From contig ONLL01000012.1 of NCBI GenBank assembly GCA_900318685.1, positions 1 to 64,000 on the forward strand: a stretch of DNA of 64,000 nucleotides, read 5' to 3'. This document shows positions 43,396 to 51,204 of this stretch, in pieces; position 1 is the stretch's first letter, and the number at the start of each line of letters is the position of its first letter. Source of the stretch: an uncultured Prevotellaceae bacterium (GTDB lineage Bacteria > Bacteroidota > Bacteroidia > Bacteroidales > Bacteroidaceae). A program made the position numbers and the translations under genes. The notes beneath the pieces were generated by a model. That model searched no databases and was not told where the DNA came from. It worked only from the letters and a program-made list of their open reading frames with translations.

Positions 43396-44298
43396 ATGAT
43401 GGAAGGAAAGAACCGCTGGGTCTATCATGCCGTGGCCTTTCTAGTGGTGGCCATCTGGGGCTCCACCTTTGTGTTCACGAAGCTCTTGCTGCTCAGCGGT
43501 TTGTCGGCAGCCCAGATCTTCACTCTCCGTTTCATCATTGCCTATGTGCTGTTGCTGACTTTCTCGCTGACACAGAAGCCCTTCCGGCTGTTTGCAGCTT
43601 CACTGAAGGATGAACTCCTGATGGTGGCTCTGGGCATCAGTGGTGGCTCGCTCTATTTCCTGACCGAGAATTCTGCGATGATCTATACCACGACCACCAA
43701 CACCTCACTCATCGTTTGTCTCTGCCCGCTGTTTGCTGCCCTGCTCATATCGATGTTCTACGAGTCCGAGCGTCTGCAGAGCATCCAGATCGCAGGGACA
43801 TTGATGGCCGCCATAGGCGTGGTGGTAGTTGTGCTCAATGGTCATTTCGTGCTTCATCTCTCACCCCTGGGCGACACCTTGGCTTTTGCCGCCTGTTTGT
43901 GCTGGGCCGTCTATTCCTTATTGATGATTCCTGCAGGACAGCACTACGACACCGTTTTCATCACACGGAAGGTGTTCTTCTATGGGCTGCTGTCGATGAT
44001 ACCCTACTACCTGCTGCGCCCGGGATTCCCCTCGATGGACCTGGTCTTCAGGCCCGACATCCTTGCCAACCTGCTGTTCCTGGGCTGTGTGGCATCGATG
44101 CTGTGCTTTGTGGCCTGGAACTGGGTCATCAAGAAACTGGGAGCGCTGACAGTCACCAACTACGTTTATTTCAATCCTGTGACCACCGTGCTCTTCGCAT
44201 GGCTGGTGCTCTCCGAGAAGATTACGATTTATTTCATCTTGGGAACGGTGCTCATCCTCACAGGCATGTACTTGGCAGAAAAGAAGAAACATGGATAA
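43396..44298 (+). CDS. DMT-superfamily transporter (EamA)
   Basis: A 300-residue membrane protein with ten predicted helices in two EamA repeats (FLVVAIWGSTFVFTKLLLLS; second repeat LAFAACLCWAVYSLLMIPAG). It probably exports a small metabolite; the substrate is unknown. ATG 43396 is the first after the methyltransferase stop, and its stop overlaps the vsr start by 8 nt. Confidence 0.88.
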   Translation: MMEGKNRWVYHAVAFLVVAIWGSTFVFTKLLLLSGLSAAQIFTLRFIIAYVLLLTFSLTQKPFRLFAASLKDELLMVALGISGGSLYFLTENSAMIYTTTTNTSLIVCLCPLFAALLISMFYESERLQSIQIAGTLMAAIGVVVVVLNGHFVLHLSPLGDTLAFAACLCWAVYSLLMIPAGQHYDTVFITRKVFFYGLLSMIPYYLLRPGFPSMDLVFRPDILANLLFLGCVASMLCFVAWNWVIKKLGALTVTNYVYFNPVTTVLFAWLVLSEKITIYFILGTVLILTGMYLAEKKKHG

Positions 44299-44821
44299 GA
44301 TCTCGTCAGAACAGCGGCACAAGAACATGGCGGCCATCCATTCGAAGAATACCAAGCCCGAGATGGTGGTGCGCAAGTGGCTATGGGCGCATGGCTTCCG
44401 CTACAGGCTCAACTCACCTCGTCTGCCCGGACATCCCGATCTGGTGCTGCGCAAATATTGTACCTGTGTCTTCGTCAACGGATGTTTCTGGCACGGTCAT
44501 CTCGTGAATGAGCGAGTGACGGATACGCAGTTGACCATTGAGAGCTCGGAGTGCTGCAAGATCCCCTCAACAAACAGGGCTTTCTGGGTGAAGAAGATCA
44601 TGAGGAACAGGGAGCGCGACAAGCAGACGCAGCAACGGCTGGCGCAGATGGGATGGCACTGCATCACGGTGTGGGAATGCCAGCTGACGCCTAAGCGACG
44701 CGAACAGACCCTGCGCTCGCTGGCCTTCACCCTGAACAGCATTTTCATCGAGGATCATACCGTGCCTCCTGCCCTGAGGAAGCAAGCCAAGGAACAATGT
44801 GATGTGGCTGCCGAGGAATAG
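44291..44821 (+). CDS. vsr: Very short patch repair endonuclease
   Basis: Vsr nicks beside T:G mismatches that arise by deamination of 5-methylcytosine. The 176-residue protein has the family motifs NTKPEMVVRKWLWAHGFRYR, LPGHPDLVLRKY (catalytic Asp) and FVNGCFWHGH, and a zinc-site Cys region. These enzymes are normally next to a DNA cytosine methyltransferase; none is present here, and the gene instead overlaps a transporter gene. The matching methylase may be elsewhere or lost. Confidence 0.9.
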   Translation: MDKISSEQRHKNMAAIHSKNTKPEMVVRKWLWAHGFRYRLNSPRLPGHPDLVLRKYCTCVFVNGCFWHGHLVNERVTDTQLTIESSECCKIPSTNRAFWVKKIMRNRERDKQTQQRLAQMGWHCITVWECQLTPKRREQTLRSLAFTLNSIFIEDHTVPPALRKQAKEQCDVAAEE

Positions 44822-48858: not shown

Positions 48859-49034
48859 CGCTCGCTCGTTGCGGACGGTGCGCTCGCTCGTTACGGACGG
48901 TGCACTCGTAGGTTACGGACGGTGCACCCGTAGGTTACGGACGGTGCACCCGTAGGTTACGGACGGCGCACCCGTAGGTTACGGACGGCGCACCCGTAGG
49001 TTACGGACGGTGGACATGCTCGTTACGGACGGCG
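48859..49034. repeat. 22-bp tandem array C (core GTTACGGACGG), eight copies
   Basis: TTACGGACGG (first copy TTGCGGACGG) starts at 48869, 48891, 48913, 48935, 48957, 48979, 49001 and 49023, a strict 22-bp period. The middle units are nearly identical, with GCACCCGTAG between cores; the outer ones diverge (CTCGCTC, ACATGCTC). There are no unique spacers, so it is not CRISPR. It runs from just after luxS to the first base of the inverted-repeat element at 49035. Confidence 0.95.
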
Positions 49035-49142
49035 GACACCCTAACACCCCACCTGATCTTCTGAAGTGCCTTTGCAGAAAGGATATTTGAAAGGTGGGGT
49101 GTTGGCCTGACATCCTACCAACACCCCACCAACACCCTACCT
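49035..49142. repeat. Left 108-bp inverted repeat
   Basis: It begins GACACCCTAACACCCCACCT. Inside it AACACCCCACCT pairs with AGGTGGGGTGTT (49092-49103), so each end can fold by itself. The motif CCAACACC(C/T)ACC then recurs twice before the inner edge, 9 bp before the VirE stop codon. Confidence 0.92.
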
Positions 49143-49151
49143 CCGAGGAAT

Positions 49152-50402
49152 CTAAGCAGCCACCAGGGGCACCAGCTTGTAATAAGTGATGCCACAATGG
49201 GTCACATGATCGAATCCCAGCTCCTTCATCTCCAGTCCCAGCTTCACCTTCATGCTGTGAGTGCTCTTCACCGAAGGATACTCACCTCGGATCAGGTCCA
49301 GCATCTGCGAGCTGTTCATCGACTTTCCTGACTCACCCTCTATAGGTTTGCGGAAGCAAGCCGCGATCATCTCGGCGATGTCACACTGTGCCATGTAATC
49401 CAGGTTGAGCTCCTGGATGCGGGCCACCTCTGTCTGGTTAAACCAGTAGGGAGCATCCTTCACCCTCAGCTCGTAGAGCACCTGTGCATAGAGCTGCCCG
49501 TAGTCGATGTCGCCTGTGTTGTCGATGAGCAGACCCTTTGGAATCTTCAGACAGATATAGCGACGACTGCCCGTAGCATCCGTCAGCGGATGAGGATTGT
49601 TGGTCGTAGCTACGAACGAGGCAAAACGCAGGCGGTCGTCCTGTGCACGTCCGAAGATAGGACGTCCGTTCACCTTGCTCTTCGATAGTGTCTGCTTCAG
49701 CGCAGCATGCTGGCTGGGACGGATGGCCTCCAGCTCGTCGAGGTTCACCAGCAGATTGTTGGTCAGGGCCATCTCTTTGTCGAACTTGTTCGACAGGTTC
49801 AGGTGGTCCAGATAGTAGCAGCGCAGCTCTGGAGGCAGCAGTCGGCGCACGAAGGTGGTCTTGCCACATCCTTGGTCGCCAATCAGCGTAGGCACACACT
49901 CATTGCTGTGCAGCAGGTCCATCTGCAGCCAGTGGGCCACTACAGAGCGCAGCCATATAGCCAGAAAGTTGTGCTGCTCCGTGCTGATGCCAGGCAGACG
50001 GCTGAAGAGACGGTTCATGTGATCCTGGCCGTCCCACTGGGGCAGGCCGTCGAGGAACGCACCGATAGGATTAAAGGCAGCCACTTCTTCCGACTGCACA
50101 TACTCGATGATGGTTGCCTTCGGGTTGCCCTTCTCACAGATCTGTTCGCGCTTGGCGCGAAGGATGGTGCTGTTGAGAGCTTCCTGCGTCAGCGGACGGA
50201 AAGTAGGCTCTGCAGACGATTCTGAGAGCTTGGCAGAGGACTCGGGATCCTGTTCTGCCAGAGGCAGCACGGCGAACTCCACCTTACCGCTGAGGATGTT
50301 GCGGCGGAAGAGGTAGTTGTCGTGCAGGAATTGCTCGATAGCGAGCAGCGTTTGTTGCGAGGCTTTTTGAGCCTCATCACTCAAAGTGACGAAATTCTTC
50401 AT
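49152..50402 (-). CDS. VirE-family P-loop ATPase/helicase-like protein
   Basis: A 416-residue protein of the virulence-associated-E type (primase-helicase relatives of phages and mobile elements). It has GAFLDGLPQWDGQDHMNRLF (family opening), Walker A LIGDQGCGKTTF, Walker B-like LLVNLDELEAI, the sensor block FVATTNNPHPLTDATGSRR and a C-terminal winged-helix-like region (SSQMLDLIRGEYPS) typical of the Bacteroidetes version. The longer family members have an N-terminal primase-like part; here only about 100 residues precede the ATPase core, so it is a minimal form. It is the only gene of the inverted-repeat element. Confidence 0.88.
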   Translation of the reverse strand: MKNFVTLSDEAQKASQQTLLAIEQFLHDNYLFRRNILSGKVEFAVLPLAEQDPESSAKLSESSAEPTFRPLTQEALNSTILRAKREQICEKGNPKATIIEYVQSEEVAAFNPIGAFLDGLPQWDGQDHMNRLFSRLPGISTEQHNFLAIWLRSVVAHWLQMDLLHSNECVPTLIGDQGCGKTTFVRRLLPPELRCYYLDHLNLSNKFDKEMALTNNLLVNLDELEAIRPSQHAALKQTLSKSKVNGRPIFGRAQDDRLRFASFVATTNNPHPLTDATGSRRYICLKIPKGLLIDNTGDIDYGQLYAQVLYELRVKDAPYWFNQTEVARIQELNLDYMAQCDIAEMIAACFRKPIEGESGKSMNSSQMLDLIRGEYPSVKSTHSMKVKLGLEMKELGFDHVTHCGITYYKLVPLVAA

Positions 50403-50475
50403 AGATTTTTAGTCCTTTTCTTTATTTAGTTAAGTGTCATGAGGTCTTGTGTCTCTCAAGGCGTTTTTCACAGTG

Positions 50476-50507
50476 CAAAGGTACAAAATTTCCTTTGCGA
50501 TTACAAT
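50476..50507 (-). promoter_or_regulatory. Promoter of the VirE-family gene
   Basis: Minus-strand ATTG (50507-50504), 20-bp spacer, TACCTTTG (50483-50476). It lies inside the element, so the gene carries its own promoter, with a leader of about 70 nt. Confidence 0.8.
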
Positions 50508-50575
50508 ACTTTTGCCCCTTAAAAAATGTTAATGATGCGGACGGCTGAGATTTGCCCCCGTCACTCTGGCTTCAA

Positions 50576-50683
50576 AGGTAGGGTGTTGGTGGGGTGTTGG
50601 TAGGATGTCGAGCCAACACCCCACCTGTCAAATCTCCTTTCTGCAAAGACGTTTCAGCAGATTAGGTGGGGTGTTAGGGTGTC
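50576..50683. repeat. Right 108-bp inverted repeat
   Basis: It ends AGGTGGGGTGTTAGGGTGTC, the reverse complement of the left end apart from one base. Both copies are exactly 108 bp, including the internal hairpin and the repeated CCAACACCCC-type motif. About nine mismatches separate the two, mostly in the loop of the internal hairpin. Confidence 0.92.
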
Positions 50684-50766: not shown

Positions 50767-50877
50767 TTGACGATAAGACAGCGTGATTTACTGGTGGACA
50801 AACAGCTGCTCACTCATCAACAAGGCGTCTACGAGGTATATGATAAGTTTATGGGCGAATGGCTTAGAAATAATTAG
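50767..50877 (+). pseudogene. C-terminal remnant of an AAA ATPase gene
   Basis: After an in-frame TAA at 50764 an open stretch of 36 codons ends at TAG 50875-50877. It reads LTIRQRDLLVDKQLL and VYEVYDKFMGEWLR, matching the winged-helix tail of the ATP-binding proteins of archaeal-ATPase type that are very common in Prevotella. The ATPase domain itself is absent, so this is a relic. The stop codon lies inside the first unit of repeat array B. Confidence 0.75.
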
Positions 50878-50956
50878 TTAGCAAATCGTAAGTATATCAG
50901 TTAGCAGTCGAGAGTATAGTAGTTAGGTGACATAAGTATAGTAATTATGGTACCTA
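50869..50956. repeat. 22-bp-period array B (core AGTATAGTAGTTAG)
   Basis: Units start at 50869, 50891, 50913 and 50935, exactly 22 bp apart, with cores AATAATTAGTTAGC, AGTATATCAGTTAGC, AGTATAGTAGTTAG and AGTATAGTAATTA. The core equals that of array A at 281-346, about 50.6 kb away and in the same orientation. It starts within the last codons of the ATPase remnant. Confidence 0.8.
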
Positions 50957-51024: not shown

Positions 51025-51184
51025 ATGGTTACGGTTACACTTGTAACCATGTAACCGCAGAAGGCTGTGGGTATAGTCGCTTGCGTTATAAAGCGATGTG
51101 TATTAGTATGTTAACGCTATTTTTATTGTGGTTTCATAACCCTAGTGGTTACATGGTTACAACTGTAACCATGTAACCACTAGG
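51025..51184. repeat. Two GGTTACA hairpins, one perfect
   Basis: CCTAGTGGTTACATGGTTAC-AACT-GTAACCATGTAACCACTAGG (51141-51184) is a perfect 20-bp stem with a 4-nt loop. A shorter relative, ATGGTTACGGTTACA...TGTAACCATGTAACC, lies at 51025-51057. Both are made of GGTTACA words. They lie beyond the end of the minus-strand fimbrial operon (stop 51205), where the larger one may terminate transcription, although no U-tract follows. The rest of 50957-51204 shows no gene. Confidence 0.75.
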
Positions 51185-51204
51185 CTGATCTAATACTACT
51201 TGTA

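Follow-up and report, generated by a model that had tools for sequence, protein, structure and literature searches.

At positions 49035–50683 of the window, by which we mean the whole stretch of 64,000 nucleotides analysed here, a single virE-type gene lies between two long inverted ends. The unit is located on contig C41 of a 3.96-Mb, 66-contig assembly (G000, the own genome in what follows). Its ends, 49035–49142 and 50576–50683, are 108 nt each, align without gaps at 92% complementarity (about nine mismatches) and leave 1433 nt between the arms. In length, inverted orientation and number of mismatches they agree with an earlier note on this DNA, which had also correctly placed an internal hairpin and repeated motifs in each end and one VirE-family ATPase gene between them. 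The parts of the locus are as follows.

48861..49034 (+), tandem array of about eight copies of a ~22-bp repeat, abutting the left end; probably part of the dispersed unit, by analogy with relatives
49035..49142 (+), left end, on the 3′ side of the gene: 108-nt inverted repeat with outer repeat copies, a conserved core, an element-specific hairpin and inner tandem repeats of ~11 bp
49068..49082 (+), core GCCTTTGCAGAAAGG, holding three of the seven nearly invariant columns of the end alignment, with two more just before it
49093..49130 (+), left-end hairpin with perfect 13-bp arms (49093–49105 and 49118–49130) that are inverted copies of the repeat
49117..49141 (+), inner tandem ~11-bp repeats of the left end
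49152..50402 (−), virE-type gene of 416 aa, with a VapE-like AAA+/helicase domain (residues 118–336) and a DUF3874-like C-terminal domain
49155..49394 (−), coding part for residues 337–416, the putative reader of the end repeats, with key residues 382 and 400–406
50576..50683 (−), right end, on the 5′ side of the gene: inverted copy of the left end (92%), matching covariance model R1
50577..50608 (+), inner tandem ~11-bp repeats of the right end
50588..50625 (+), right-end hairpin with perfect 13-bp arms (50588–50600 and 50613–50625)

The left end matches the covariance model of the ends, R1, at 1.8e-19, its sequence being itself part of that model, and folds as DNA with z values of −4.3 and −3.8 on its two strands; a search of Rfam around the unit gave sub-threshold matches only. 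The sharp outer borders described earlier hold in so far as the inverted part stops at 49035, but the ~22-bp array (48861–49034) adjoins exactly there. Since such arrays often accompany the element in relatives, the array probably belongs to the unit, and what is dispersed is probably larger than 49035–50683. Other repeats lie nearby. GGTTACA/TGTAACC repeats, both inverted and direct, occur just past the unit (51033–51056 and 51136–51189) and are unlike its ends, and a second ~22-bp tandem family (about AAAGTATAGTAGTTAGC), separate from the unit's own array, is found at 274–340 and 50875–50926 of the window and at 573–616 of locus L008. Further upstream, an open reading frame at 44291–44821 (+) resembles what we take to be a Vsr-type mismatch endonuclease.

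The protein encoded by the unit matches the VapE-like family PF05272 (9e-32) and DUF5906, and its match to DUF3874 falls just below the curated cut-off. Across 56 aligned family proteins, the VapE-like ATPase is present in all and is followed by DUF3874 in 54. The PF08800 domain (BT4734-like N-terminal, primase-related) is absent from the window protein and from the families matched by these 56 proteins; it is present in both longer relatives scanned, one of which comes from the own genome. The best PHROG match is annotated as ‘DNA helicase’ (1.8e-39), relatives being named DNA helicase or primase in that collection, and the sole PDB relative that was found by sequence is a VapE protein, 7pds. 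A helicase function is thus suggested by homology. Where a bacterial VirE ATPase domain is joined to a primase, a role as helicase in mobile-element replication has been predicted (PMC5862659).

The window copy is one of many. The own genome holds three copies of the gene (100, 69 and 67% identity); the one on contig C30 has its own 107-nt inverted ends, and the one on C42 has inverted ends of at least 55 nt. Within the genus, 86 of 200 genomes contain a relative at E 1e-60 if the longer type of 36–39% identity is counted too. A scan of GTDB yielded 341 loci, the best 80 of which carry the titles Prevotella, Prevotellaceae, Bacteroidaceae or Bacteroidales, with many from rumen or other gut samples. 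When R1 was run on 142 gene loci (40 + 42 + 60), at least one end was found at E 1e-5 in 120, with both ends in 92 and one in 28, and no end at that threshold in 22. These figures include 27 of the 31 elements of the model, which match by construction (directly or as a refetched place), as well as some further loci that are one place fetched from two collections; loci L009–L037 were also scanned for ends and stand outside the 142. The surroundings of the copies differ. In five copies of genome G399 (L265–L268 and L270), the element starts with the same bases, ACCCCTCACC, where the flanks do not align with one another. The window copy lies beside luxS. The luxS query matched 200 other genomes, and in all 29 of the loci retrieved from them the gene was missing from this place (flanks of at most about 1.5 kb). 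Since ends and genes of this kind are met again in many copies and in varied surroundings, the unit is not a fixed chromosomal feature, and the restriction to one chromosomal place that the earlier note had named as the finding that would speak against mobility is not what we see. The window unit is a member of a large, dispersed and seemingly mobile family in Prevotella-type genomes that appears to be undescribed.

The ends of this family follow a common plan. It emerges from an alignment of 62 ends from 31 elements, taken from 35 with long inverted ends by leaving out L014, L059, L066 and L072 (L021, L083 and L116 were skipped when elements with long inverted ends were collected). From the outside to the inside, outer repeat copies are followed by a core around GAAAnGCC..TGTA.AAAGGG, a hairpin and tandem repeats of 11 or 12 bp. 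The hairpin pairs one direct and one inverted copy of the repeat, and its letters vary between elements while the pairing is kept: all eight pairs have changed on both sides, and the covariation score is 0.604 compared with 0.05–0.17 for slid controls. Each element has its own ~11-bp repeat, common to both its ends, as is reflected in a left/right identity of the 8-mer motif of 0.932 within elements (66 elements) versus 0.569 between elements. In L315, L317, L327, L041 and L049, some repeats read AGGT for ACCT (C to G at three places), e.g. AGGTCACT or AGGTAACC, and look as if they were an inverted half-site.

What ties the protein to these ends is covariation. In a set of 90 elements, obtained by thinning the proteins to below 93% identity, distances between repeat motifs correlate with distances between proteins for residues 337–416 (Spearman 0.449) and hardly for residues 1–117 (−0.008) or 118–336 (0.089). 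The partial correlation for the C-terminal part is 0.493, a value reached in none of 300 permutations, whereas those of the two other parts (−0.143 and −0.104) lie below nearly all permutations. Windows of 12 residues give 0.52 at 397–408 and at most 0.27 elsewhere; windows of six residues peak at 400–408, with lower peaks around 358–366 and 376–390. This pattern of peaks would fit a winged helix, the fold that we would expect for DUF3874. At the level of single residues, motif position 5 is C in 54 of the 56 elements with histidine at position 404 and A in 26 of the 27 with asparagine there, the remaining seven of the 90 having G, R or C at this residue. Likewise, histidine at residue 382 is paired with A at motif position 1 in 49 of 49 elements, and 24 of the 25 elements with I, M, T, V or L there have C.

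The same association is seen along the phylogeny. On one FastTree tree of residues 1–330, analysed by parsimony, residue 404 also changes on the branch of 15 of the 18 motif changes; 22 of the 178 branches change that residue (hypergeometric P 5e-14), and eight of 12 changes at motif position 1 share a branch with a change of residue 382. Because the C-terminal coding DNA adjoins the 3′ end of the element, joint exchange of the two stretches was worth testing as a cause of the covariation. Silent third positions do not follow the motif, however, with a correlation of 0.099 in the C-terminal region and 0.02–0.11 across regions compared with 0.449 for the amino acids, so that such hitch-hiking is unsupported. 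Taken together, the residue–repeat covariation, the silent-site control and the shared branches make it very probable that the VirE protein binds the ends of its own element. To this extent, the VirE-based mechanism proposed in the earlier note gains substance, namely in the part that connects VirE with the ends. The C42 copy, which is part of neither the model nor the statistics and in which R1 found no end, has H382, R402 and N404, and its repeats, AGGTAACT, fit the tendencies at three positions in a register chosen by hand. The window copy itself has the rare G404 and a mixed C/T at the matching motif position; it is therefore uninformative at residue 404 and does not itself illustrate the code.

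Many copies of the ends exist without the gene. In the own genome, ends without a close gene are present on contigs C21, C22 and C35 (both ends) and on C36 and C38 (one end found). End matches to R1 at E 0.1 were further counted in 17 genomes, picked partly for having or lacking the gene. Eight of them have several matches, with 82 in G055, 93 in G151, 34 in G088, 21 in G198, 18 in G136, 19 in G045, 55 in G266 and five in G098; these are not exact numbers of ends, as some ends also give a weak second match on their other strand and 150 candidates were scored per genome. Among the other nine, three have one marginal match (E about 0.07) and six have none. Genes and ends largely coincide: seven of these eight genomes contain a virE relative with 45% identity or more, G098 being the exception, and of the nine others, G345 alone has a close relative, the rest having distant ones (37% or less) or none. 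More precisely, G345 carries a close virE gene without an end match (G345:C1:2483987–2485171), and G098 has its five end matches with no gene at 1e-10; both may possibly be frozen or orphaned remnants.

The gene-less copies bear the mark of the genome in which they reside. Across 71 such copies from eight genomes, the mean number of motif mismatches out of eight is 0.54 to the genes of the own genome and 3.15 to those of other genomes, and 61 of the 71 are within one mismatch of a gene motif of their own genome. The set includes copies with one end found and a few copies in G398 and G399 that represent the same site in two related genomes; L246, L248, L262 and L274, which bear the gene, were left out of the comparison. 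Such a match is as expected if the VirE protein of a genome serves its gene-less copies in trans, and it would also arise if these copies were deletion products multiplied by other means. In G266, a genome of two contigs, two gene-less copies are 96% identical over 507 bp while their flanks are unrelated on both sides, which is the constellation of same ends and different flanks that had been suggested as something to look for.

These observations also bear on a reading in which the ends are REP/BIME-like repeats, fixed and with a regulatory or chromosome-organising role, that are bound by a protein and were dispersed passively long ago, the repeats next to the gene being autoregulatory. The window copy does sit between ordinary chromosomal genes, beside luxS, arrays and ends form mosaics in G055, and a DUF6078 gene stays beside the virE gene in 26 of 80 loci. 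Yet near-identical copies with unrelated flanks within one genome, the sharp common borders of the five G399 copies, the patchy presence between species and the retention of both ends by gene-less copies all speak against fixed repeats, and we regard this explanation as quite improbable.

If the family is mobile, the question arises as to what moves it. The unit contains one VapE-like ATPase gene alone and no transposase, HUH nuclease, recombinase, integrase or strand-transfer domain; with no nuclease or strand-transfer domain in the unit, cutting and joining must come from elsewhere. The main rival to the reading that we favour below holds that the ends are moved by another enzyme, a transposase or HUH nuclease whose gene lies at a different place in the genome, with VirE as an accessory, regulator or immunity factor. 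AAA+ partners act as accessories in some transposons. The lack of a strand-cutting domain in the unit, the gene-less copies, which show that action in trans is possible, and the end matches of G098 in the absence of a gene would all suit this idea, as would the distribution of Y1 transposases, for which a match is present in nine of 12 end-bearing versus three of nine end-less genomes. Against it, no Y1_Tnp match was found in three of the 12 end-bearing genomes, G266 (99% complete and with 55 end matches), G399 and G000 (87% complete). A Y1 transposase in trans as a requirement is hence unsupported for these three, while the other nine have one; the enzyme is not needed everywhere, and in view of the imbalance it is a possible helper.

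Nor did any target duplication stand out. Testing 150 units at about 2,500 settings of length and offset gave at most small excesses (for example, six versus 0.9 at 5 bp and 11 versus 3.2 at 3 bp), none covering more than 11 of the 150 units; arrays blur the true outer border, so that array units were tested at the wrong one, and some sites are represented twice, by units from two genomes. On balance, we consider a separate transposase with VirE as its accessory rather unlikely. A clean empty site was likewise looked for. At the luxS loci of other species, the luxS gene alone aligned; the sites shared by G398 and G399 were both occupied or had different units beside the same junction; the flanks of L266 and L260 yielded no empty site; G031 (20 contigs, whole or as their first 20 kb, about 0.28 Mb) was not close enough to serve as a source; and an extra copy in L201, read by eye, is not a clean interruption. 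The notion of a transposase-less element put forward in the earlier note is borne out as regards the missing transposase and the dispersed copies, but it lacks a clean empty site in the loci searched.

The same note had considered a defence or satellite unit. VapE-type proteins occur in phage satellites, and distant relatives of the window protein are indeed present in phage records. However, no PADLOC family matches, the unit has one gene and no integrase, the packaging or interference genes of phage-inducible satellites are missing from it, and gene-less copies are many. Phage and plasmid collections and IMG/VR contain distant relatives only, the best listed phage and plasmid ones being about 28–37% identical and all of them under 60%. 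Neither part of this suggestion has held up, and a defence or phage-satellite unit now seems highly improbable.

We are thus left with the reading that we consider rather probable, namely that the unit is one copy of a mobile-element family that has a single gene, for an initiator-like AAA+ ATPase/helicase, and that spreads by replication from its ends. In this scheme, the DUF3874-like C-terminal domain would bind the element's own repeats at both ends, and the ATPase would assemble on the ends, with their hairpins, into an ATP-driven ring and melt them. DNA synthesis of the element by host polymerases would follow, in cis or, on gene-less copies, in trans, and the copied DNA would be joined elsewhere by an enzyme from the host or another element. 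Copying of one end from the other, or the constraint of a shared reader, may keep the two ends alike. The ~22-bp array would be a second, mostly one-sided set of protein sites. A bolder version, which we put forward tentatively and with more doubt than conviction, sees here a new class of transposable element, in which the sole element-encoded mobility factor would be an origin-binding AAA+ helicase with a re-codable DUF3874 DNA reader. Lineages would switch their private end sequence and a few reader residues together, and the element and its gene-less satellites would be copied from inverted, hairpin-bearing, iteron-like ends without a transposase of their own.

Several known systems resemble the family in part. 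The closest by protein are the BT4734/BF3469-family primase-helicases (PF08800 + PF05272 + DUF3874), which share the ATPase and C-terminal domain and whose longer relatives occur in the own genome as well as elsewhere in the genus. They differ in their PF08800 N-terminal domain, which the protein of the unit lacks, and G024 holds several long copies with no end match better than E 0.077. This single-contig genome, without a convincing R1 end, carries four virE-type genes (C1, at 446546, 2737103, 2798764 and 3438577) with open frames of 698 aa that are 29–30% identical to the query and possibly constitute a different mobile unit. As in REP/REPIN-RAYT systems, the family studied here combines a gene of the genome with numerous short inverted repeat units that lack the gene and match it; in contrast to RAYTs, the unit has no Y1/HUH transposase, none was found in three of 12 end-bearing genomes, and the gene lies between the two ends in many copies.

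A similar comparison can be made with MITEs and their master transposons, which share with the family the short gene-less derivatives that have the inverted ends of gene-bearing copies. The copies on C21, C22 and C35 and many in relatives are of this short, non-coding kind and share their inverted ends with a coding relative, while the window copy has the gene; unlike a master transposon, however, the gene-bearing copy has no transposase. An insertion sequence or DDE transposon encodes its transposase between its ends, which the window unit does not. P4 alpha, parvovirus Rep and SaPI Rep are initiator helicases with origin-reading domains. The unit resembles them in its AAA+/SF3-type ATPase with a domain that would read repeats, here at hairpin-bearing inverted ends, and differs from them as a stand-alone chromosomal unit of 1.65 kb with no nickase, primase or packaging genes. 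Among the matches listed from the open-access full-text literature on VirE/VapE, BT4734, DUF3874, DUF6078, transposase-less elements and Prevotella MITEs, we found no description of the element.

If the favoured reading is true, DNA would be able to spread without an element-encoded transposase, and the large repeat load of some Prevotella-type genomes would be explained. It would also give DUF3874 and VirE/VapE helicases a concrete job, the reading of repeated origin sites. Thanks to the covariation between residues and bases, natural variants of protein and DNA offer a direct test of the central claim.

Two further components frequently accompany the element. The first is the ~22-bp tandem array, which lies within 600 bp of one end in 48 of 77 gene loci compared with 16 arrays in 593 kb of farther flank. 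In these 48 loci, the array is upstream of the gene only in 37, downstream only in eight and on both sides in three, and many array units are palindromic by eye. In G266, G151 and G399, the similarity of gene-less copies continues through the array and then stops. The second is a protein cluster that adjoins the gene in 26 of 80 loci and of which the two members scanned are DUF6078 (PF19555). There is no DUF6078 gene beside the window copy; a two-gene variant, in which the ends enclose both a gene of this cluster and virE, is seen in L042, L063, L084 and L112, and DUF6078 occurs in 116 of 200 genomes of the genus. In the own genome, locus L007 (G000:C23) has DUF6078 at 47–526, a palindromic 22-bp array at 538–604 and a long BT4734-type gene at 688–2541, an arrangement that suggests an old three-part module of DUF6078, array and BT4734-type gene.
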